DNA of 64,000 nucleotides from a virus. The stretch covers positions 32,876 to 96,875 of the IMG/VR virus record IMGVR_UViG_3300017605_001488, one strand, 5' to 3'. A program made the translations under genes and the position numbers. Of this stretch, positions 5,627-24,324 are shown piece by piece. The stretch's first letter is position 1, and the number at the start of each line of letters is the position of its first letter. Under the pieces are notes generated by a model, which worked only from the letters and a program-made list of their open reading frames with translations, searched no databases and was not told the DNA's origin.

Positions 5627-6048
5627 GGTGTCTCCTCGGGCGTGTTCGCCGCCAAGCGTTCCGCCGAATCCTTTGCCTTCATCAGCTCCACGCACCGCGG
5701 GCACCGCGTCGACTCCCCGAACACCGGCATGTCACGCACGATCGGCGGTTGCCCAACGTCGACGCCCGCTGCGTCCGAGTAGTACCCGTGATCGGGGCAC
5801 ACCTTGCGCTCGTCGTGCATCGGTGGCCCGCGACGGATGATCGCGACGGCGGTGGCAACACGCTCGAGGACGGCCACGGGAATCTCGACCTCGTCATACG
5901 TGTGGTGATCGGGATGGCCAAGCCACGATCGAATCGTCGCGCTCGTTAGCTCACCGCCGCCGTACGCAAGCACCACCTCGATGCGCGCCCCACGTTCCTC
6001 GTGACCACCGAGCACCAACTCGACGTGATGCTCCTCGCGCACGTCCAT
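5623..6048 (-). CDS. Unknown protein with C-terminal zinc-binding motif
   Basis: A 141-residue protein whose TGA overlaps the ATG of the SbcD-like gene, so it leads this small operon after a 262-base gap. The N-terminal half is beta-rich and acidic (MDVREEHHVELVLGG). The C-terminal half has C-x2-H (CPDHGYY) and a later CPRC, consistent with one zinc site. No family is recognised. Confidence 0.65.
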   Translation of the reverse strand: MDVREEHHVELVLGGHEERGARIEVVLAYGGGELTSATIRSWLGHPDHHTYDEVEIPVAVLERVATAVAIIRRGPPMHDERKVCPDHGYYSDAAGVDVGQPPIVRDMPVFGESTRCPRCVELMKAKDSAERLAANTPEETP

Positions 6049-6110
6049 GCGTTCACCCCGTGAAAAATAGGTGCGGTCTCTCCCGCCGTCACGCCCTCAC
6101 CACGGTGGCC

Positions 6111-6126
6111 GCGGGGCATGCCCCGC
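6111..6126. repeat. Perfect 16-base palindrome
   Basis: GCGGGGCATGCCCCGC is a perfect palindrome in the 262-base gap (6049-6310) between the SSB gene and the small zinc protein gene. It could be a protein-binding operator or fold as a short hairpin. The rest of the gap holds the hairpin at 6250-6287 and no supported gene. Confidence 0.45.
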
Positions 6127-6249
6127 AACCGTTGTGGATCTGCCCGGTATCCCGAGCTCCGTCTTTCTCGCGCAGCGTTCGCACGGTCTACGTCTGACGG
6201 CTTGACGTGGTTTCCTAGCCGGTGGCACTTCAGAAACCAGAGAACCTAA

Positions 6250-11129: not shown

Positions 11130-12020
11130 CTACGGTTCAATACGTACAGCGTCCCAACAATCCAACGACGCCATGGCTGCCGCACGAACCGCGGCCTGGC
11201 TTACTTCATCGGGGTCGACCTTGGGCGGGAATCGAATCGCTCCGGCTCGATGCCCATCGAGACGCAACCGCAATGCGGCGGCGTACCCTGCCTCCCATTC
11301 ATCGCCGTCGGGCACGAACACCTTGGGGCGCGGTGCCTTTGCGACGGCGTCCATCACGCGATCGTCCGTTACTTTGCCGAGCGCTCCGACCGCGTTGGGC
11401 AAGTGCGCCATCGCATCGAACCCACCCTCCATCACGAGCAGCGGCTCATCGGTCGTGACGGACAACGCGCGACCGTTGAACATCACACCGTGCCGATCGC
11501 CGACGGGGTACAGGTACGGCACGTCGCACTTCTTCACCCACGCGCGCGCGATGAACCACGCCCACTTGTTGGGGTCGTCGTACTCGAAGATTGGAATGAT
11601 GACGCGACCGGCGAACCGCCCGATGACGCACGCGCCGAGGCGATGCTCGATGATCTGCTCGTCTGTGATTCCGCGGGCGTTCAGGAAGTCCCACGCCGGC
11701 TGCAACGATTCGGCGTCGTGCGTGCCGTCCTCGCCGAGGAAGTAGAACCCCTCGGGTTGCTCGATCGGCTTCGGCGGCGGCTTGTCGCCCTGCTCGACGG
11801 GGTCGTACTCCTCCGGCGGATGCGCCAACCGACCACGCGCCTCGCATCGATAGCACTCATAGCGCAACGACAGCACCGAGAACCCGAAGCTGCGTTTGCG
11901 ATCGGACTTGCCCACACGGTACTCGCACAACGGGCAGTCGATGCGGATCCACCCGGTATCCGACACGCGCCGCCCAATGACGGCACTGGCAATCAAGTCG
12001 TCGAAGAACGCATCACTCAC
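11130..12020 (-). CDS. DNA primase, DnaG/gp4-type zinc finger plus Toprim
   Basis: A 296-residue primase that would make RNA primers for lagging-strand synthesis. The N-terminal zinc finger is C29-x2-C32 with C56-x2-C59 (CPLC and CYRC). A catalytic core follows, with a Toprim segment LLVMEGGFDAMA and a second acidic motif FVPDGDEWEAG. The start is the GTG at 12020, overlapping the helicase TGA (GTGA), with AAGGGG upstream; the frame is open further but the residues there look non-coding. Primase and helicase are adjacent separate genes rather than a T7 gp4-like fusion. Confidence 0.85.
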   Translation of the reverse strand: MSDAFFDDLIASAVIGRRVSDTGWIRIDCPLCEYRVGKSDRKRSFGFSVLSLRYECYRCEARGRLAHPPEEYDPVEQGDKPPPKPIEQPEGFYFLGEDGTHDAESLQPAWDFLNARGITDEQIIEHRLGACVIGRFAGRVIIPIFEYDDPNKWAWFIARAWVKKCDVPYLYPVGDRHGVMFNGRALSVTTDEPLLVMEGGFDAMAHLPNAVGALGKVTDDRVMDAVAKAPRPKVFVPDGDEWEAGYAAALRLRLDGHRAGAIRFPPKVDPDEVSQAAVRAAAMASLDCWDAVRIEP

Positions 12021-13417
12021 GGCTTGAGCCCCTTGAGCGCCACAGCACTGTCGTACGCGGTGGCGTACGGGTCGTTGTCGTAGAACCCAAACGGCGCGAT
12101 GCGCGCACACGCGAAGTCGGTGGGCAACGGTCCGATGGTTTGCCCGTTGCGACCGAGGCGGTTCTTGAACACGTGCAGCTCGACTTGCTCCTGGTCGCGG
12201 AGGTTGATGGACACCCCGTAGTCAGCGGTGCGCGGCTTGCCCATCGAGTCCGCGGTGTCATCGATGTCGAGCTTCTTCGTCGCCTTGTTCTTCCCGTCGC
12301 CGCGTCGGGACTGCGATGCGGTCGCCGCCCATCGCTTCCCGTCGCGTGCCCACACGAACATGTCCTCGTACACCGACCCGCTGGCCGTGTAGCTGTTGTC
12401 CTGCGCGCGTTCGCTGATTCCTTGGGCGCGCATCTTGTCCGCGTAGTCGACGACCAGGACATCCATCTGCGCGCCCCACGCCTGCTCCGTGTCGCGAATC
12501 CATCCGCGCAACGTGCCCATCGTGGTCGCCTTCGGAGTGAACGACTTGACGGTGATGGCGCCCATCCCCGGCCGCCCGAAGATTTCATCGAGCCGTTCGA
12601 TGGCACCGCACGCGTAGGGCTCCTCGATGATGGCGTCGATCGGGATCCCGGTGAGGCATGCCTTGACGCGTGCAAGCCAGATCGGCACCGGGAGCTCGAG
12701 CGTCGCCACGCCAACGCGGAACCCTTGCAGGCACGACGCTGCCGCGTGTTGCGTGAGCGACACGGACTTGCCGCCACCGGACGGCGCGAGATAGTACAGC
12801 AACGTCCCGCGCATCCACCCACCGCCGAGCGAATCATCGAGCTCGAGGATTCCCGACTTCAGACGTTGGATGGTCTTGAGCCGTTCGAGGTGTTCAAAGC
12901 TACCCGGCCCGATGGCGACACCGACCGTGTCCTCGTACTCGCCGAGGTGCTTGGCCTTCTCCAACCGTTGCATCGCACCGTGCACGTCACCGCGCCGCTG
13001 GTATTCCGACAGCCCGGTCTCGATCGCTTCGCGCTCCATGCGCCGCTTGAGGATGGGCACGACCTCGGCGAGCAGCGCCTCGTCGGATACCATCGCACCG
13101 GCATCCTCGGCGGCATCGAAGTAGTCCGCGACCGCGACGATCTGATCGTGCGTCACCTTCCCTTCGGACATCCACCGCCGCAACCGTTGCATCACCACGA
13201 CGGTGCTCTCGGGACCGGTGCCGCGTTCGCGCGCGACGATGGCCGCCGCTTGGATCGCGAGCTTCGCCGACGGTGCTGCCAAGCAATCGGCCTCGACCTC
13301 GACACCGATGAGCGACCACGTCCGCGGGTGGCTGCACAGCACATACACGAGAGCGCGCTCGAACGTCGGGTCGAAGTTGAACGGCTCGCGACTACGTTTG
13401 ATTGGAGCAACGTTCAT
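12017..13417 (-). CDS. Replicative DNA helicase, DnaB-like
   Basis: A 466-residue RecA-fold helicase expected to unwind the fork as a hexamer. An N-terminal DnaB-like helical domain precedes the motor. The Walker A is APSGGGKS (near residue 210), followed by VATLELP, Walker B DVLVVDYADK, and ATASQSRRG as the motif-3 glutamine region. The ATG at 13417 shares one base with the upstream TGA (TGATG). GGGGGAG lies upstream. It is coupled to the primase gene downstream. Confidence 0.88.
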   Translation of the reverse strand: MNVAPIKRSREPFNFDPTFERALVYVLCSHPRTWSLIGVEVEADCLAAPSAKLAIQAAAIVARERGTGPESTVVVMQRLRRWMSEGKVTHDQIVAVADYFDAAEDAGAMVSDEALLAEVVPILKRRMEREAIETGLSEYQRRGDVHGAMQRLEKAKHLGEYEDTVGVAIGPGSFEHLERLKTIQRLKSGILELDDSLGGGWMRGTLLYYLAPSGGGKSVSLTQHAAASCLQGFRVGVATLELPVPIWLARVKACLTGIPIDAIIEEPYACGAIERLDEIFGRPGMGAITVKSFTPKATTMGTLRGWIRDTEQAWGAQMDVLVVDYADKMRAQGISERAQDNSYTASGSVYEDMFVWARDGKRWAATASQSRRGDGKNKATKKLDIDDTADSMGKPRTADYGVSINLRDQEQVELHVFKNRLGRNGQTIGPLPTDFACARIAPFGFYDNDPYATAYDSAVALKGLKP

Positions 13418-15192: not shown

Positions 15193-16683
15193 TCAAGGCC
15201 ACTTTTCGATCGTGGTCGTATGCCCCTCGCCGAGGTAGGCATCGCGCCGCTCCTTCGTGTGGTGCTCGAGCCACTTGCACCCCGGGTGGATTCCGAACCC
15301 TTCGTGGCCCATGAGCTTCGCGGCCTCGCGGCAACCGCACCCGGTGTCGGCGATGTCGAACACCTCGAACGTGTTCTTGATGACGTTCCCCGCGGCGTCC
15401 TTCTCGACACGCATGCCGCGACCGATTCGCTGCAACGTGGCGATGACGGACTTGCCGCCGCTCGCAACGACCACCGATCGCAGCTCGGGCACGTCCATGC
15501 CTTCTTGAAACACGACCGAGCACACGATCACATCGAGTCGCCCGGCGACGAGGTCGCGCACCTGGCGCTGCCGCTGCTCGGTGTTGTGCGTGCCCCACAC
15601 GAACGCCGCGCGCAGCCCGGCATTCCACAACGCGCGCTCGATGGCCTTGCCGTGCTTGACTTCCTTGACGAACACGAACGCCGGCTTCTCGGCCTTGAGC
15701 GCCGCCTGGACCACGACCTTGTTGCGGTGCGCACTGCCGACGATGGCCTCGCGGTATACCGCGGCCCACGTACGCGCGTCGCTGCGTTGCGGGACTTCGA
15801 CCATGCGAATGTGTGGCTTCGCGAGCACACCGCCATCAATGAGCTCCGACGTGCGGGTACGGTGAATGATCGGGCCGAGCGTCGCGATGGCCAACATCGA
15901 TCGGCGGTCACCGCGCGCGAGCGGCGTGCCCGACAACCCCACGCGGTAGTACGCCCGCTGAAGGTTGTGCACGACCGACCAGAACGAATCTGCTGGCAAT
16001 ACGTGGCACTCGTCGACGATGACGGCCTCGACCTCGTTGAGCAGGTTGAACGCGCGCTGGTCACCGCGCTTGAGGGCGGCGGCGATGGTTTGGAACGTTG
16101 CGCACGTGAACCGGTCACCGACGGACCATTCGCCCTCGCCGATGCGCCCGACCATCTTGCCGGTCAACCGGTGCATCGCCTCCTCGGCCGCGGTGAACAT
16201 CGACCCGTCGAGCGCGCGCTGCTCGTAGCGCCGCGCCGCCTGGTCCATCAACGTCGACCGGTGCACAACGAACAACGTCTTGCACCCCCACACGCGCACG
16301 CATCCGACGGCGAGCTCCGTTTTCCCCGCGCCGGTCGGCTCCCACAAGATGCCCACGTCGTGCTTCACCACGGTACGCACGGCGCCGTCCTGGTAGTCGC
16401 GCAGCCACGCAAGGTCCGCGTTCGGATCGAACCCCGGCGGGCGCACGCGCTTGTCGACGATCTCGACCTGCATGCCCTCCTCGCGTGCGGCATCCACGAC
16501 CATCGGCACGAACCCCGACGGGAACGCGTCCGTCAGGATGTTGTACATTTGGATCTGCTTGCGGGATGACCGCCGGTGGTGCGCGGTCGGATCGGGGAAC
16601 GCTAGGTACTCGCGCACGAACCGCCGTTCGTCGTCGGTGCCCCGAATCACGCGGCTGTTGAGGATGTGCCGTTCGATCCACAT
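15193..16683 (-). CDS. SF2 DEAD/DEAH-box helicase, UvsW-like
   Basis: A 496-residue superfamily 2 helicase. Visible motifs are I (EPTGAGKTELA), II (IVDECHVL, a DECH box), III (GLSGTPLA), a C-terminal domain with FVFVKEVKHG, motif V (CSVVFQEGMDVP) and VI (QRIGRGMR). The N-terminal extension before motif I resembles phage UvsW/RecG-type branch-migration helicases that process stalled forks and recombination intermediates. The ATG at 16683 shares a base with the preceding TGA (TGATG). It ends a small operon with the HTH and ParB-like genes. Confidence 0.85.
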   Translation of the reverse strand: MWIERHILNSRVIRGTDDERRFVREYLAFPDPTAHHRRSSRKQIQMYNILTDAFPSGFVPMVVDAAREEGMQVEIVDKRVRPPGFDPNADLAWLRDYQDGAVRTVVKHDVGILWEPTGAGKTELAVGCVRVWGCKTLFVVHRSTLMDQAARRYEQRALDGSMFTAAEEAMHRLTGKMVGRIGEGEWSVGDRFTCATFQTIAAALKRGDQRAFNLLNEVEAVIVDECHVLPADSFWSVVHNLQRAYYRVGLSGTPLARGDRRSMLAIATLGPIIHRTRTSELIDGGVLAKPHIRMVEVPQRSDARTWAAVYREAIVGSAHRNKVVVQAALKAEKPAFVFVKEVKHGKAIERALWNAGLRAAFVWGTHNTEQRQRQVRDLVAGRLDVIVCSVVFQEGMDVPELRSVVVASGGKSVIATLQRIGRGMRVEKDAAGNVIKNTFEVFDIADTGCGCREAAKLMGHEGFGIHPGCKWLEHHTKERRDAYLGEGHTTTIEKWP

Positions 16684-16964
16684 CACCGCCCCGCGGCGCT
16701 TTCCTTCATCAGCTTCTTACCTTCGGCAATGAACGCCTCGCGCTTCTTCTCGCACAGCGCAGCCATGGTCTCGTTCCCGTCGTTGCGGAAGTACGCGGCG
16801 GCGGACTTCATGTCGACATACAGTGCGCGCCCGTCGCGCGTGCCGTCGATGTGCCCGTCGTTGACGAGCCGGTGGATGGTGGACAGGGACTTGATGAGCA
16901 CCTTCGCCACCTCGGCCGCCGGGCCAAATCCCTTCTCCAACATCATCGGGTTCCGTGCGTACAT
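16683..16964 (-). CDS. Excisionase/MerR-like small HTH protein
   Basis: A 93-residue protein. The start at the ATG at 16964 is set by a perfect AGGAGGT seven bases upstream. The central segment (AEVAKVLIKSLSTIHRLV, then GRALYVDMKSAAAYF) follows the pattern of excisionase-type winged HTH domains that bind DNA as small regulators. A helical, lysine-rich tail follows. Its stop is coupled to the SF2 helicase start. No integrase is present, so a regulatory rather than excision role is more likely. Confidence 0.6.
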   Translation of the reverse strand: MYARNPMMLEKGFGPAAEVAKVLIKSLSTIHRLVNDGHIDGTRDGRALYVDMKSAAAYFRNDGNETMAALCEKKREAFIAEGKKLMKESAAGR

Positions 16965-16974
16965 CGCTAACCTC

Positions 16975-17694
16975 CTACGCGCCATCGATCAGCCGCATCA
17001 ATCCCACGGCGAGGTCGGCCCCTTTGCCGCCGCCCGCCTTGCGCAACGCCCGCTTCACCCGTGCGAGGTCTGCTCGTGTCCCGAACGTGAGTTCGAGCAC
17101 GAACGGCTTGATGGGTGCATCGGAGTCGTCGGGCACCGCGCCCATCTCGGGCGTGATGTCCAACGACGCGTCGACGGTGGTCTTGACGAGGTCGGCGATC
17201 TCGCTCGGGGAAAACCCGGTCAAGCTCAGGTCCTCGATCGACCACCCATCCGCGTGCATGTCCGCCAACGTCGACGCCACCGCCGACAGGTCGAGCTCGC
17301 CGCGTAGTCGGTTCATTCCGATTTGGGCGATGCGTGCCTGTTCGGCATCCATGCCCACGACGACGCACGGCAACTCCGTCATCCCGTTGGCCTCGGCCGC
17401 ACGCACGCGGTGCCATCCGTCGACGATGACGAACTTGCTGGCGAGCCGCATCGTCGCCTCGACGGCGGCACGGAACTCCTCGATGGTGCACGACCCCTGC
17501 TCGGGGAGCTCGATCGTCTCCTCGCCCTCGTCGATGGGTCGGACGAGCACCGGTTGCACGAACCCGATGCGCAACATCGCCGCTTGCAGCGTGTCGCGCT
17601 TCTCCTGGTCCATGCGATTCGGGTTCTCGGGCGGGTCCGCCAGCCGCGAGATCGGAATGCTGATGATTCGGGCGCTTTCGTAGCTATCGAACAT
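16975..17694 (-). CDS. ParB/Srx-fold domain protein
   Basis: A 239-residue protein with an N-terminal ParB/sulfiredoxin-like domain. Visible features are IPISRLADPPENPNRM, a central VDGWHRVRAAEANG motif (the conserved box that binds nucleotide in ParB-fold proteins), and MNRLRGELD. The C-terminal part is helical and unrecognised. Phage proteins with this fold act as DNA-binding regulators, CTPases or nucleases; the residues seen do not decide which. The start is the ATG at 17694, just after the sigma-like gene. Confidence 0.75.
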   Translation of the reverse strand: MFDSYESARIISIPISRLADPPENPNRMDQEKRDTLQAAMLRIGFVQPVLVRPIDEGEETIELPEQGSCTIEEFRAAVEATMRLASKFVIVDGWHRVRAAEANGMTELPCVVVGMDAEQARIAQIGMNRLRGELDLSAVASTLADMHADGWSIEDLSLTGFSPSEIADLVKTTVDASLDITPEMGAVPDDSDAPIKPFVLELTFGTRADLARVKRALRKAGGGKGADLAVGLMRLIDGA

Positions 17695-17704
17695 GGCGGT
17701 GATA

Positions 17705-18301
17705 CTAGCCCCTTCTCGCCCGGGCGAGATCCCAAAGCGTCCCGTCCTGCACCACACGTGATCGGAGCCGTGCCGTCATCGCGTGCACCGCCGGCGGTGC
17801 GATGCCGAGCAACGTGGCGACCTCGCGCGGCGTCGTCTCCTCGAGCAGCACCGGCACGACGGGAATCAACCCCTCGACGCGGGCGACATCGATCAACCGT
17901 GCGCGCACACGTTCGCGCCATTGCTTCTCCTCGACCGCCGCGAATTGCCCCGGACCCTGGTCGACGAGGTGCACCGACCGCTGCTCCGTTTCGTCGCACC
18001 CGTCATCGCCTGCGATGCCGGTACGGTGCAACCCTCGGTACGACTTTTCGGGGCGGTGCTTGCCGCCGCTGACGGGCGCGGACATCGACCAGAGGAACCG
18101 CCGCACGGCCAACACCACCGCCGTCCAGAAGTAGCCTTCGGGCTCGTCACCCGCGCCGGCCACGTACGTGTGTCGCGCCTCGGCGCACGCGACGTGTCCG
18201 ACCTGGCGCAGCTCCGCCGGCTCCGCCCACCAACACCGTCGGGAGTAGCGGCTCGTGACCTTGCGCACGATCTCGATTTCGGCTTCTACGCTAATCGGCA
18301 T
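17705..18301 (-). CDS. Sigma-70-family-like factor (putative)
   Basis: A 198-residue protein. The N-terminal helical region with aromatic residues (SRYSRRCWWAEPAELRQVG, then GYFWTAVVLAVRRFLW) resembles sigma region 2. The C-terminal segment (TTPREVATLLGIAPPAVHAM) is a clear helix-turn-helix of the region-4 type. It would redirect host RNA polymerase to phage promoters. Neighbouring HTH and ParB-like genes fit a regulatory cluster. The start is the ATG at 18301, within the end of the YkgJ-like gene. Assignment rests on layout and the HTH pattern, so it could be another DNA-binding regulator. Confidence 0.5.
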   Translation of the reverse strand: MPISVEAEIEIVRKVTSRYSRRCWWAEPAELRQVGHVACAEARHTYVAGAGDEPEGYFWTAVVLAVRRFLWSMSAPVSGGKHRPEKSYRGLHRTGIAGDDGCDETEQRSVHLVDQGPGQFAAVEEKQWRERVRARLIDVARVEGLIPVVPVLLEETTPREVATLLGIAPPAVHAMTARLRSRVVQDGTLWDLARARRG

Positions 18302-19596: not shown

Positions 19597-19814
19597 CACG
19601 GGCACGGCGGGACCTCGTCGCGCTCGATGCCCATGGTGCCGTCACACGTCGGACAGTTGCGCATCTCGACGGTGTCGATGTGACCGAGGATGGGCAACGC
19701 GTGCCATTGGGCGAGCGTGAACACACGCCCGCAACACGTGCACTTCTTGAATGCACCGCCCGCCCGGGCGAGCTCGAGCTCGCCCGGGATGGAACGAAGG
19801 CGGAGTGCAACCAT
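19596..19814 (-). CDS. Small zinc-ribbon protein
   Basis: A 72-residue protein from the ATG at 19814, coupled to its neighbours by one-base overlaps at both ends. It contains C-T-C-C then CPTC spaced about 30 residues apart (KKCTCCGRVFTLAQWH... NCPTCDGTMG), a typical single zinc ribbon. Such proteins are common in phage early operons as nucleic-acid-binding accessories; no specific role can be assigned. Confidence 0.7.
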   Translation of the reverse strand: MVALRLRSIPGELELARAGGAFKKCTCCGRVFTLAQWHALPILGHIDTVEMRNCPTCDGTMGIERDEVPPCP

Positions 19815-20686
19815 CACAGCACCAACCCGGGTGCGGCGGACATGTCGATCGGATTGAGCTTGAGGATCGCGGTGGTGAGCTGGGCGCGCAGGTCGTCGAT
19901 GCCCGCGTGCAGGGTCTCGAGCTTCCGTCCCATCAGGTCCTCGTACGCTTCGACCTTCGCCTTGATGTCGTCCATCGTCTCGACGCGGTGTTCGAGCGCG
20001 CGTTTGCCGAGCGACGCGTCCGTGAGCTCTCGTTCGAGCACGTCGGCGGCGCGCTTCGCTTCTTGCGTGATGGCCTCGGTGAGCGCGTCCATCGCTTCGC
20101 CCGACCGCATCGCGGGCACACACGAGATCACGTGCGGTGATGCTTCACGCAACGCCTTGAGCATGCGATCCCACATCGGGACGGCGAACCGCGGCACGAA
20201 GTAGATGCCGCCCGTGTCACGCAACCCGACCGCCGAGCACTTCGGCATCATCTCGACGAGCCACGCGGACACGTCGGCCTGAATGATGTTCGACAGGTAG
20301 TGCGTGAACCGCGCGCGCAGCGTCTCCGCCTGTTCGTGGTCGTCGGGTTCGATGCCCAACCGACCCACCTCGTTGATGGAGACCTTGATGTCGGTCTCGT
20401 ACACGAGGTCGTCCCCATCGATCGATTCGTGTTCGTTCACGACGAGCCACGTGCCCGTCTTCAACCGACGGGTGAGCCGGTGCGCGCCGCGCTGTTCCGC
20501 GACCGCGCGTTGCATCGCGACCGTCGGGGTCGGGTCGTTCGGCAGCCACTCCTCGTCGAGGTTGTTGTTGGCCCACGCCGTGCGCAGCCGGCCGATGTCC
20601 ATGCCGCCCACAAGCCTCCACCACACAATCACGCCTGCGGTGTCGACGTTTTCCATCACCGCAATCAAACCGTGGTCGTTCGCCAT
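19814..20686 (-). CDS. Unknown protein of the MoxR/VWA cassette (DUF6744-like?)
   Basis: A 290-residue protein with an excellent AAGGAGG ribosome site before the ATG at 20686. The first two thirds form a mixed alpha/beta domain (VIVWWRLVGGMDIGRLRTAW, GGIYFVPRFAVP). The last third is a coiled coil (ITQEAKRAADVLERELTDAS). From memory this layout resembles the DUF6744 family, found next to MoxR and VWA genes in phages and bacteria; that needs a profile search. It has its own promoter, near-identical to the one before MoxR, supporting a shared task. Confidence 0.6.
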   Translation of the reverse strand: MANDHGLIAVMENVDTAGVIVWWRLVGGMDIGRLRTAWANNNLDEEWLPNDPTPTVAMQRAVAEQRGAHRLTRRLKTGTWLVVNEHESIDGDDLVYETDIKVSINEVGRLGIEPDDHEQAETLRARFTHYLSNIIQADVSAWLVEMMPKCSAVGLRDTGGIYFVPRFAVPMWDRMLKALREASPHVISCVPAMRSGEAMDALTEAITQEAKRAADVLERELTDASLGKRALEHRVETMDDIKAKVEAYEDLMGRKLETLHAGIDDLRAQLTTAILKLNPIDMSAAPGLVL

Positions 20687-20745
20687 GTCGCGCCTCCTTG
20701 GCAGTCGACACCACGCGCGCACGAGCGTCGGGTGTCGACCTGCCC

Positions 20746-20773
20746 ATCATACGCATGATTGCACTGATTGCAA
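20746..20773 (-). promoter_or_regulatory. Conserved promoter P3
   Basis: Minus-strand TTGCAA (20768-20773), 16-bp spacer, TATGAT (20746-20751). The spacer and -10 region are almost identical to the copy at 23382-23409: a core of 18 identical bases, two changes, then ten identical bases. Start of transcription would be about 50 bases before the ATG at 20686. The spacer carries GCAATCA twice in tandem, a possible activator or repressor site. Confidence 0.75.
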
Positions 20774-20796
20774 GCATGCCGGTGCTATCGTTCGTA

Positions 20797-22188
20797 TCAG
20801 GACGCTTCGCGGTCGGCGCCTTCGTTCTCGTACACGATGGTCTCGTGCACCCACGACGGCACGCACTCACGGCGCATGTACCGACCAACCAGCAGCACGA
20901 TGACGCGCATGCCTCGCGGGCACTGGTCCGGCCACGGGCCGTCTGCGTCGGTGACGAACACGACGACCTCGGGGCGCGGTTTCATCGCCGACAGCGCCGC
21001 GAACCCCGGGCGGAAGTCCGTGCCGCCGCCGCCCTTGAGCATGCGTGCGACCTCGTGAATCGATCGGACCTTCGCCTTTTCCCCGTGCACGGCCGCGTCG
21101 GCGGTGACACACGCGATGTCGGCGCCGATGGCCTTCATCACGCCTTGCGTTTCGTTGAGCGCGTCCTGCAACGCTTCGGGACCCATCGACCCCGACGTGT
21201 CGACCATCACCGCGACGTTCGGCACCGGTTGACGTAGTCGCGCGAGGATCGGGTGCCCACCGCCGAACCCGATGCCCGCCTGACGACGTGACGGGCCGTC
21301 GTATCGGTGCGTGAACGCGCCCGGACGAAACGACACCGCCGTGCGGCACGCGTTCGACAACCGTTGACGCCACGGCACCTTCGGGGGTTCGAGGTTCGCT
21401 TCGGCCATGCGCGCCCACGCCTCGGGGATTTTCCCGCGTCCGGGACCGGATGCCGCTGCACGCACCGCTTCGCTCGCGGCACGCACCACGCGTTCGACCT
21501 GAGCGTCGCTGCGTCCATCGGGATCGTCCGCGCCGGGTTCGTCCTTGCCCGGGTTCGATGCGCATCCACCGCACGCACCGTGACACACCGAACCCTTGCC
21601 CTTGCCCGGTTCGCCGCCTTCGCCATCGGCGTCGCCGTCCGATTGGCCCGGCCTCTTTCCGCCCGCACCCGGTTGGCCCTTCCCCTTCGCGCCGCCCTTC
21701 TGCTTCTGCTGCTTCATCGCGGCGCGGTAGTACTCGTCGGCGGTGAGCCCGTCGGGCATGCCCAAGTCCTTCGGCCACACACCGCCGTCGTCACCGTCGG
21801 GGAGCTCGAGCCCCATTTGCAGAATGGGCGGGTTGATGGCGCGGTCACCGGCACGGTTCCACTCGCCGGGGTCGCGACCGTTCAGGCGTTTGCCGTGCTT
21901 GTTCCACAGGTGCTGCACTTCGTGGATGACGAGCCCGGCCATCTTCCGCGGGGTCTGCCGCACGACGAAGTCCGGGTCGTAGATGAAGATCGCGCGCTCG
22001 GTGACGCCGACCGTGCCGAGTCCCCACACCTCGCGCATCACGAATGCCATGATGATCGGGCGGAAGTACGGGCACGTCTGCTGCGCGATGATGCGCCCCG
22101 CCGCGATGAGCTGGTTGGCCTTCTTCAAGACCTCCGCAGCATCCTTGCGCGGTTTCGCGTTCTGGTCGATGGTGATCGACACGGACAT
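20797..22188 (-). CDS. VWA protein with N-terminal HExxH metallopeptidase-like domain (DUF2201 type)
   Basis: A 463-residue protein. The N-terminal domain has the zinc motif HEVQH at 89-93 within a peptidase-like helix. A Gly/Lys/Asp-rich linker contains a cysteine patch (CHGACGGC). The C-terminal von Willebrand A domain has a complete MIDAS: DTSGS at 330-334, T390 and TDADG near 412. This is the layout of the DUF2201 pair of domains, whose VWA proteins work with MoxR ATPases as ATP-driven chaperones or metal-insertion machines. The ATG at 22188 overlaps the MoxR TGA (TGATG), so both are made together. Confidence 0.85.
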   Translation of the reverse strand: MSVSITIDQNAKPRKDAAEVLKKANQLIAAGRIIAQQTCPYFRPIIMAFVMREVWGLGTVGVTERAIFIYDPDFVVRQTPRKMAGLVIHEVQHLWNKHGKRLNGRDPGEWNRAGDRAINPPILQMGLELPDGDDGGVWPKDLGMPDGLTADEYYRAAMKQQKQKGGAKGKGQPGAGGKRPGQSDGDADGEGGEPGKGKGSVCHGACGGCASNPGKDEPGADDPDGRSDAQVERVVRAASEAVRAAASGPGRGKIPEAWARMAEANLEPPKVPWRQRLSNACRTAVSFRPGAFTHRYDGPSRRQAGIGFGGGHPILARLRQPVPNVAVMVDTSGSMGPEALQDALNETQGVMKAIGADIACVTADAAVHGEKAKVRSIHEVARMLKGGGGTDFRPGFAALSAMKPRPEVVVFVTDADGPWPDQCPRGMRVIVLLVGRYMRRECVPSWVHETIVYENEGADREAS

Positions 22189-23336
22189 CACCGACCCCCA
22201 CGCGCGGTCACGCCCGCGGCGGCCAACACCGGGTTCATGCGTGCGAGCATCGCGGTCGATGCGCCCTTGCCATGCAGGCCGGCGTTCACGAGCGCGGTGG
22301 CCGCGGGCACGATGATGTCCATCGCGTTGTCACCGACACCGGCCAACAGCTTCCACAACGCGTTCGACCGGTCCTCGCGCTTCTCCGCATGTTGGGGCGT
22401 GACGAGCGCGACCGCGGAGTTGATGACGACGGCCGATCGATCGAGCCGTCGGTTGTCGTGCTTGAATTCCTCCTTGCCGTCGAGCACGTGCGCGACGTTC
22501 GGGAGGTCCTGCTCGGCGCAGAACGTCGCGAACGCGGCATAGGCTTCCTGTCCGATGAACGACGACACGAACTCGTCCCTGTCCGCTTCGCCGAGCCCGT
22601 GCACGAACGACGACGCGAGTGCGCGGGTCGCCATCTCCCACGTGCGATCGGACGGCCACGCGGCGGACTGCTGCACGGCGGACTTCGGAAACTTGTTTTT
22701 CCAATCGGCCTGCGCACGGAGGAACCCCGTCTCGAGACCGACCGCCTTGGCGTAGGCACCGTCCCATTCCTTGACCACACGCGCTTCTTCGGCATCGCAG
22801 TCGACGGCGTTGTCGGTCGTGTCCGCAGCCATGCCGAGCATGTACGCGATGTGCTCCTCGATGGTCGGCGGGTGCCACCGGAGCCACCCGCCGCGGTTCG
22901 CGAGCGGCGGTGCGATCTCGTACCCGTTCGCGGCCATCTCGGGCGGGTTGCACGCCGCCCACACACGCACGCCGCCGGGGAGTTGATGCGAGCCGATGCG
23001 CTTGTCGAGCAACAGGCCCATGCACGGGGCTTGGATGATGGGCGGGTTGCTCGTGATCTCGTCGAGGAACACCAGGCCACGCTTGCTAAACGCCGCGGTC
23101 CAGTCCGGCGCGGGGTACGTCAGCGATCCCTTGACCGGGACCGGGACGACACCGAACGCGCCTTCGCCACGTTCCGCACCCGACAACACCTCGCACGGCA
23201 CGCCGACGCGTTTGGCGAAGTCGCGGATGAACGTGGACTTGGCAACACCGGGCTCCCCGATGAAGTACAGCGGCAACCCCCATCCCTGGGCGGTGCGGGT
23301 GAAGAATGCGGCGTGGATGATGCGGGCGAGATGCAT
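22188..23336 (-). CDS. MoxR-type AAA+ ATPase
   Basis: A 382-residue AAA+ ATPase. Walker A is GEPGVAKST at 27-35 and Walker B is LVFLDEITSNPP near 90. A sensor-1 asparagine is seen in AACNPPEMAANGYE, with an arginine-finger region nearby. MoxR ATPases use ATP to remodel target proteins or insert metal with VWA-domain partners. The ATG at 23336 has GAAGGAG upstream. It is the first gene from the conserved promoter at 23382-23409 and is translationally coupled to the VWA gene. Confidence 0.88.
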   Translation of the reverse strand: MHLARIIHAAFFTRTAQGWGLPLYFIGEPGVAKSTFIRDFAKRVGVPCEVLSGAERGEGAFGVVPVPVKGSLTYPAPDWTAAFSKRGLVFLDEITSNPPIIQAPCMGLLLDKRIGSHQLPGGVRVWAACNPPEMAANGYEIAPPLANRGGWLRWHPPTIEEHIAYMLGMAADTTDNAVDCDAEEARVVKEWDGAYAKAVGLETGFLRAQADWKNKFPKSAVQQSAAWPSDRTWEMATRALASSFVHGLGEADRDEFVSSFIGQEAYAAFATFCAEQDLPNVAHVLDGKEEFKHDNRRLDRSAVVINSAVALVTPQHAEKREDRSNALWKLLAGVGDNAMDIIVPAATALVNAGLHGKGASTAMLARMNPVLAAAGVTARGGR

Positions 23337-23381
23337 GGTGGTTCTCCTTCGGGTCGATGTGGTGGGGGCAACCCCCGACAC

Positions 23382-23409
23382 ATCATACGCATGATTGCGG
23401 TGATTGCAA
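23382..23409 (-). promoter_or_regulatory. Conserved promoter P2
   Basis: Minus-strand TTGCAA (23404-23409), 16-bp spacer, TATGAT (23382-23387). It carries the same tandem GCAATCA and GCATGCG-like core as the copies at 20746 and 24213, plus an additional ATTGCAA-type repeat upstream. The predicted start is about 40 bases before the MoxR ATG at 23336. ATCAT-ACGC-ATGAT around the -10 is a hyphenated palindrome that could be an operator. Confidence 0.75.
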
Positions 23410-23491
23410 GTATTGCAATGATGGCGATGCAACGAAAACAGGCCGACGAGCGCGAACCCGCCGACCTGCTTGGACTACTTCGATGTGCGAA

Positions 23492-24160
23492 TCACTCCGC
23501 GGCGGCGGCAGCGGTCGCCGCCGGCACGACGTGGCCGCGCTTGAAGAACAGGATTTCGCCCTTCGCGGTTTTCACCTTCACCTGGCCGTTGGCCATGGCG
23601 ATGACCTCGAGATTGACGAGGTCGGCGGCATCGAGCATGCCGTCGTACCCCTTGCGGAGGTTGTCTCGGATCTCGACCTTCGAGCCGACCTTCACCGCGG
23701 CGGACGCCGCCGCGACGGCACCGCGCACGGACGGACGCCACGCGCGGGGCACGGACGTGATGAGGTCCGCCGCCACGCGGAGCTTCGCGCCGGCGACCAC
23801 GAGCTCGGTGCGCGCCCCGGGGAACGGATCGGACGACGCGACGCCTTCGACCGGGGTGGTCGGGGGCTCGAACTTGTACTTGGCGATCGACTTGAGCGTC
23901 GCCTCGACGCGGGCGGCCATGCGGCTGAGCAACACGCCCTTCATGTGGATCGGGCCGAGCTCGCGCGCCTGCTTGTCCCACTCGGTGAGCGGCTTCGGGC
24001 CGGTCGCGGCCGTGGTGGCAGTCGTGCCGGGCGTCGTCACCGTCGCCGGCTTGCCCGAGCGCTCCGCATCCTGACGCGCGATCTCCTCGGGCGTCTTGTC
24101 GCTGTGGTCGATGGCGGGCGTGCGGGGAGCGGTGCGAGTGACGGTGTTCTTCTTTGCCAT
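23492..24160 (-). CDS. Unknown protein of the MoxR/VWA cassette
   Basis: A 222-residue protein. The ATG at 24160 has GAGGAAA upstream. The first 55 residues are basic, Thr/Pro/Ala-rich and probably disordered. The rest has an alpha/beta domain and closes with a small beta-barrel-like stretch (VGSKVEIRDNLRKGYDGML, then NGQVKVKTAKGEILFFKRGH), which resembles a KOW/SH3-like fold, and an Ala-rich tail. No family is recognised. It is the sole gene served directly by the conserved promoter at 24213 and precedes the MoxR/VWA pair. Confidence 0.65.
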   Translation of the reverse strand: MAKKNTVTRTAPRTPAIDHSDKTPEEIARQDAERSGKPATVTTPGTTATTAATGPKPLTEWDKQARELGPIHMKGVLLSRMAARVEATLKSIAKYKFEPPTTPVEGVASSDPFPGARTELVVAGAKLRVAADLITSVPRAWRPSVRGAVAAASAAVKVGSKVEIRDNLRKGYDGMLDAADLVNLEVIAMANGQVKVKTAKGEILFFKRGHVVPAATAAAAAE

Positions 24161-24212
24161 GGTGATTTCCTCGATTCGGGTTTGGGCTCACGGGCTCGTG
24201 AGCGCAGACCCA

Positions 24213-24240
24213 TGTATACGCATGCTGCCGAAGATTGCAA
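24213..24240 (-). promoter_or_regulatory. Conserved promoter P1
   Basis: Minus-strand TTGCAA (24235-24240), 16-bp spacer, TATACA (24213-24218). It shares the GCATGCGTAT core with the other two copies, but the spacer is more diverged. It lies in the 164-base divergent gap between the leftward 222-residue gene and the rightward operon, about 45 bases before the leftward ATG. A rightward promoter for the plus-strand genes should also be here, but only weak matches are visible. Confidence 0.65.
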
Positions 24241-24324
24241 CTATTGCGATTGTTTTCTTGCTAGCGGGATCGCTACCATCCGACATCACGGGAGAATCCG
24301 AGGCAACCGCGCAAGTGCGGATCC

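Follow-up and report, generated by a model that had tools for sequence, protein, structure and literature searches.

Introduction

Jumbo phages have paired genes for a MoxR ATPase and for a vWA protein whose N-terminal domain is a metallopeptidase, and the products were proposed to act in virion assembly with peptide processing (PMC7824862). The pair p618/p892 of the archaeal virus ATV, which has no peptidase domain, is an experimental precedent (PMC7824862). Viral AAA/VWA pairs were also read as CobST in haloarchaeal viruses and cyanophages (PMC8651126), and haloarchaeal pairs were noted alongside Hardycor1 (PMC7911831). In multicellular bacteria, MoxR and vWA proteins belong to ternary conflict systems, the third parts of which are VMAP, iSTAND, FtsH or beta-propeller proteins (PMC7159879). 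RavA-ViaA of E. coli and the pairs on mobile elements discussed below are alike in having a MoxR motor and a co-chaperone with a C-terminal VWA domain; those of the plasmids and phages described here come with a protein of the family DUF6744.

The locus analyzed here is a four-gene cassette in an uncultured phage. The sequence-only reading had presented all four genes as uncharacterized as a phage system. This is not the case for the MoxR and VWA genes, a pair that was already known (PMC7824862; PMC8651126), and what appears to be new is the partnership with DUF6744. The word DUF6744 was not found in the literature searched, and the association may have been described elsewhere or under another name.

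Results

The window, the whole stretch of 64,000 nucleotides that was analyzed, comprises bases 32,876-96,875 of a virus record of 96,875 bases. The contig encodes a Phage_capsid-family protein and a tail sheath that shares, across 55% of its length, about 30% identity with the one in Streptomyces phage BRock, which indicates a contractile-tailed phage with no close cultured relative. All four cassette genes lie on the minus strand. In order of transcription they are D (23492..24160, 222 amino acids), C (22188..23336, 382 amino acids), B (20797..22188, 463 amino acids) and A (19814..20686, 290 amino acids), and the stop codon of C overlaps the start codon of B in the sequence TGATG. The earlier observation of four genes was confirmed, including their coordinates, lengths, strand and the TGATG coupling. 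The cassette is located outside the structural block, on the replication side of the contig, and its neighbors in the window include a gene for a ResIII/SNF2-type helicase and a ParB_N gene. Beyond the DUF6744 gene, at 15196-18301 of the window, lie the helicase, a small gene, ParB_N and a further gene without assignment, an order that is similar in the related uncultured phages L024, L028, L029 and L030.

A 38-bp promoter-like element, consensus TTGCAATACTTGCAATCACYGCAATCATGCGTATGATG, is present in five near-identical copies in the 96.9 kb of the contig. Three of them, all on the minus strand, precede D (24212..24249, the most divergent copy), C-B (23381..23418) and A (20745..20782); B does not have its own copy. 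Scored with a matrix built from the same five copies, all five reach at least 49 bits and the next non-overlapping site reaches 8. The copies before C and A include a predicted promoter match, TTGCAA-16-TATGAT. The cassette is thus predicted to consist of three promoter-like units, D, C-B and A. It had been proposed that the unassigned genes and the pair each have the same promoter type. The likeness of the elements before D, C and A is sharper than that claim, and the cassette divides into three units. The other two copies precede small genes without assignment, upstream of the window at 5718-6134 and 11984-12373 of the contig (L011), with products of 138 and 129 amino acids. These genes may belong to the regulon of the cassette.

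Protein C has Walker A (GEPGVAKS) and Walker B (VFLDE) motifs of a MoxR/AAA_5-type AAA+ ATPase. Compared alone with Pfam, it gave matches under the cut-off to AAA (0.0024) and AAA_5 (0.0042). It matches phrog_1297, "ATPase", at 2e-33; a profile made from nine homologues matches midasin at 6.7e-21, and the alignment of C to a RavA-type MoxR profile covers 294 columns (6.6e-12). The conserved Walker motifs together with the similarity to the midasin and RavA-type profiles place C in the MoxR/AAA_5 group. The cassette differs from RavA-ViaA in that its motor belongs to a separate MoxR clade, its VWA protein carries an HExxH domain, and the window proteins have no NCBIfam RavA or ViaA match.

Protein B is a DUF2201-type HExxH-VWA co-chaperone with an HExxH domain, a Gly-rich linker and a C-terminal VWA domain. 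Its matches to the Pfam models DUF2201_N (9e-28) and DUF2201 VWA (7e-16) are both over the cut-off. Among ten phage proteins, H89 and H93 of the HExxH motif (H89/E90/H93) are invariant and E90 is present in 9; N111, A113 and D115 of an NxAxD motif (111-115) are invariant as well. The MIDAS is intact, with D330, S332, S334 and D414 invariant and T390 nearly so in the same ten proteins. B also matches phrog_1314, "HNH endonuclease", at 2.5e-44. Since the Pfam result consists of DUF2201 domains this label seems wrong, and its use for HExxH-VWA proteins in PHROGs and in many phage records looks like a propagated misannotation. The linker includes a CGxC sequence at about residues 203-210; C206-G207 is invariant in the ten proteins, the second cysteine is missing in some of them, and a metal or disulfide site is possible.

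Protein A matches DUF6744 at 4.9e-13 (49 bits, cut-off 27) and contains the GGxYFVP sequence, part of the invariant motif RxxGGxYFVP. AlphaFold2 models it with confidence (pLDDT 88.5, pTM 0.78). Among viral proteins the model has four matches, including one in the haloarchaeal virus HVTV-1; in the PDB it has none below E 0.02, for which reason no enzyme is proposed for A. Resemblances to NDM and Rad50 were rejected because the PDB alignments are partial and not significant. No recognized effector or enzyme domain was found in DUF6744 by family, profile and fold searches. All three family assignments of the earlier reading, MoxR for C, an HExxH domain with an intact-MIDAS VWA domain for B and DUF6744 for A, proved right.

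Protein D has no family match in Pfam, PHROGs or NCBIfam. Its model, of low confidence (pLDDT 63), has a helical N-terminal part and a small C-terminal beta barrel with a weak, only suggestive resemblance to SH3/Tudor/PWWP-like folds. A search of viral contigs with D gave no match. Homologues adjoin the pair in L020, L028, L029, L099 and L101, six loci with the window (L095 is the contig of L029); D would be an accessory restricted to part of this phage clade.

The association of DUF6744 with MoxR-VWA pairs was assessed on loci collected by DUF6744 alone, irrespective of their neighbors. Megablast of the cassette against phages, scans of viral contigs in which A, B and C served as single queries, and a first genome scan with a two-sequence DUF6744 profile gave no match. 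A DUF6744 alignment identified 18 loci in viral contigs and 20 plasmid records, 12 of which were examined; with the window and the Moorella phage MTATph1 these make 32 records. In 28 of them DUF6744 has a MoxR gene as well as a VWA gene no farther than about 6 kb away. Random gene positions would yield 6.4 of 31 (P about 5e-19, a rough guide because related records are treated as independent). Of these 28 pairs, 18 are of the RavA/ViaA type and 10 of the HExxH/DUF2201 type found in the window. Scanning the genomes of bacteria and archaea added 43 DUF6744 loci, mostly from Bacillota and Actinomycetota, 34 of them with both genes and 5 with one. When the pooled 75 loci were grouped at 70% identity, 46 of the 56 clusters had both genes, 4 had one and 6 had none. 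In the pooled sets the genes are co-directional in 59 of 62 cases, at a median distance of 1.7 kb. DUF6744 is the first gene of the set in Bacillota, Pseudanabaena and MTATph1, whereas in Actinomycetota and in the window it is the last. No adjacent pair was seen in HVTV-1, L022, L026, L032, L039 and L070-L073. Two scaffolds labeled "Bacteriophage sp." with MoxR/VWA pairs, L008 and L010, appear from their other genes to be pieces of bacterial chromosomes.

In a tree of the MoxR companions of DUF6744, 53 proteins form a RavA-type clade (support 1.0) and an HExxH/DUF2201-type clade (support 0.99) holds 19 of 20, the divergent L127 falling outside. The DUF6744 tree divides likewise (supports 0.94 and 0.99), and L127 joins with low support. 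This split is consistent with DUF6744 having long been the partner of each of the two kinds. DUF2201_N had no match among the RavA/ViaA-type sets that include DUF6744, and the HExxH domain is therefore dispensable for the link. A third kind of pair is found in HVTV-1, where gp59 is an AAA_5 ATPase and gp57 a VWA protein containing an HECGH motif. In this virus DUF6744 is gp25, which was matched at 3e-19 and, by a wider profile that includes gp25 itself, at 2.6e-64; it lies about 15 kb from gp59/gp57. Taken together, these comparisons suggest that DUF6744 serves MoxR-VWA pairs as a dedicated third partner.

The dependence runs one way. MoxR proteins of the kind of C were identified in at least 496 viral contigs. 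Among the best 80 of these loci, 74 have a VWA gene in the same locus and 10 have DUF6744; the 70 loci without DUF6744 include some on short contigs. Nine of the 10 DUF6744 loci are among the ten MoxR loci closest to the window, four of which are on contigs already in the DUF6744 set. The sequence-only reading was to be given up if the partner genes did not accompany the pair in related phages; they do so, DUF6744 in these nine loci and D in the six loci mentioned above. DUF6744 was not found in the records of HHTV-2 and P-SSM2, nor in those tested for the jumbo-phage pair (121Q, RM378, phiFa and SCTP-2). Since most phages with an HExxH-VWA pair do not have DUF6744, the pair can work in its absence. 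HHTV-2 gp2 was considered as a DUF6744 candidate and rejected, because it proved to be the HExxH-bearing part of a split VWA protein.

Large plasmids also carry DUF6744 sets. Those of Nocardia and Pseudanabaena were typed MOBP, the Nocardia plasmid has a conjugative DNA-transfer gene, and a TraM-recognition gene is present on one from Brevibacillus. Stretches of 50 kb from four plasmids, about a third to half of each and with many genes labeled "hypothetical", had no gene named as terminase, portal, capsid or tail. The plasmid pairs are of the RavA/ViaA type without HExxH. Although incomplete, this is good support for a module that can work without a virion.

Discussion

We propose that the cassette encodes a three-part AAA+ remodeling machine with DUF6744 as its dedicated third part, acting inside the host cell; we give this reading a probability of roughly 0.55. 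C would be the AAA+ motor. B, which has the metallopeptidase-like HExxH domain, would be the co-chaperone and would use the MIDAS of its VWA domain to grip the target. A would be either a client of the pair or an adaptor that aims it at a target, and D an accessory belonging to part of this phage clade only. The site of action would be the infected cell, on a host complex or one of replication or genome maintenance, and not primarily the virion. The carriage by plasmids and the position near the helicase and ParB_N genes, outside the structural block, favor a machine internal to the cell. We infer the formation of the complex, its direction of action and its intracellular target, and the case for an intracellular role in this phage is drawn from other elements.

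The jumbo-phage proposal is the closest alternative. The window has the same two genes, for a MoxR ATPase and, beside it, a vWA protein that begins with a metallopeptidase domain (PMC7824862); their products match phrog_1297 and phrog_1314. According to this explanation, the pair is an assembly chaperone with a maturation peptidase that folds or processes tail or head proteins. The equal architecture of the jumbo-phage pairs and the archaeal-virus precedent speak for it (PMC7824862), as do the 121Q pair, which adjoins genes annotated as structural, and the hundreds of phage contigs that carry the pair. The cassette differs from the jumbo-phage pair in the attached DUF6744 and D genes, the shared promoter-like element and a contig, possibly incomplete, of less than 100 kb in place of a jumbo genome. 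Its place on the replication side weighs against this explanation. So does the occurrence of MoxR-VWA-DUF6744 on plasmids that showed no virion genes in the parts examined, which makes virion maturation unlikely as the general role of the module and weakens the earlier suggestion that the cassette could mature a virion enzyme. However, the plasmid pairs, being of the RavA/ViaA type, have no HExxH and leave room for a virion function of the HExxH pair. On balance we consider a virion-assembly function of the cassette unlikely.

More doubtful still is a conflict system in which MoxR and VWA hold a DUF6744 sensor or effector off until a rival phage, a plasmid or a host defense sets it off, for superinfection exclusion or counter-defense. 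The trio resembles the published ternary systems in having MoxR, vWA and a conserved third protein in one cluster (PMC7159879), and its carriers are mutually unrelated mobile elements. However, the third protein here, found on phages and plasmids, is DUF6744, none of the four named classes (PMC7159879); it has no recognized effector or enzyme domain, and no variable effector domains were seen. No PADLOC model matches the four window proteins, the only match being a weak one of IetA to the Moorella ATPase. The remaining explanation, an auxiliary metabolic pair of CobS/CobT cobaltochelatase subunits raising B12 synthesis, is very improbable: AAA with MIDAS-VWA is indeed the pairing of viral CobST and of ATV p618/p892, and HVTV-1, of a family reported to have CobST (PMC8651126), also has DUF6744, but B matches the DUF2201 metallopeptidase/VWA models, NCBIfam gave no CobT or CobS match, CobN was found neither in this virus record nor in any of ten records searched, which also leaves the suggested metal insertion unsupported, and an association with DUF6744 is not a known B12 feature.

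The three-part remodeling machine proposed for this phage may be one case of something wider. Somewhat short of even odds, in our estimate, MoxR-VWA-DUF6744 is an undescribed ternary AAA+ class of tailed phages, an archaeal virus and plasmids, with a shared function in host takeover or genome maintenance, which would include some of the viral "CobST". If this were true, one third component would have been kept with different motor and co-chaperone lineages. The association gives DUF6744 a fixed set of partners and connects MoxR-VWA pairs of phages, an archaeal virus and plasmids whose current interpretations range from chaperones of virions to genes for B12 and "HNH endonucleases". What such pairs remodel becomes testable through a defined third protein, and plasmid members without virion genes would permit a direct separation of virion from non-virion roles.

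One phage seems to carry both types of pair. In MTATph1, a RavA/ViaA-type pair is located near DUF6744 (L004:9551-12129), and a DUF2201_N match lies beside an AAA_5 match at 149583-151339 of the record, about 35 kb from that pair.
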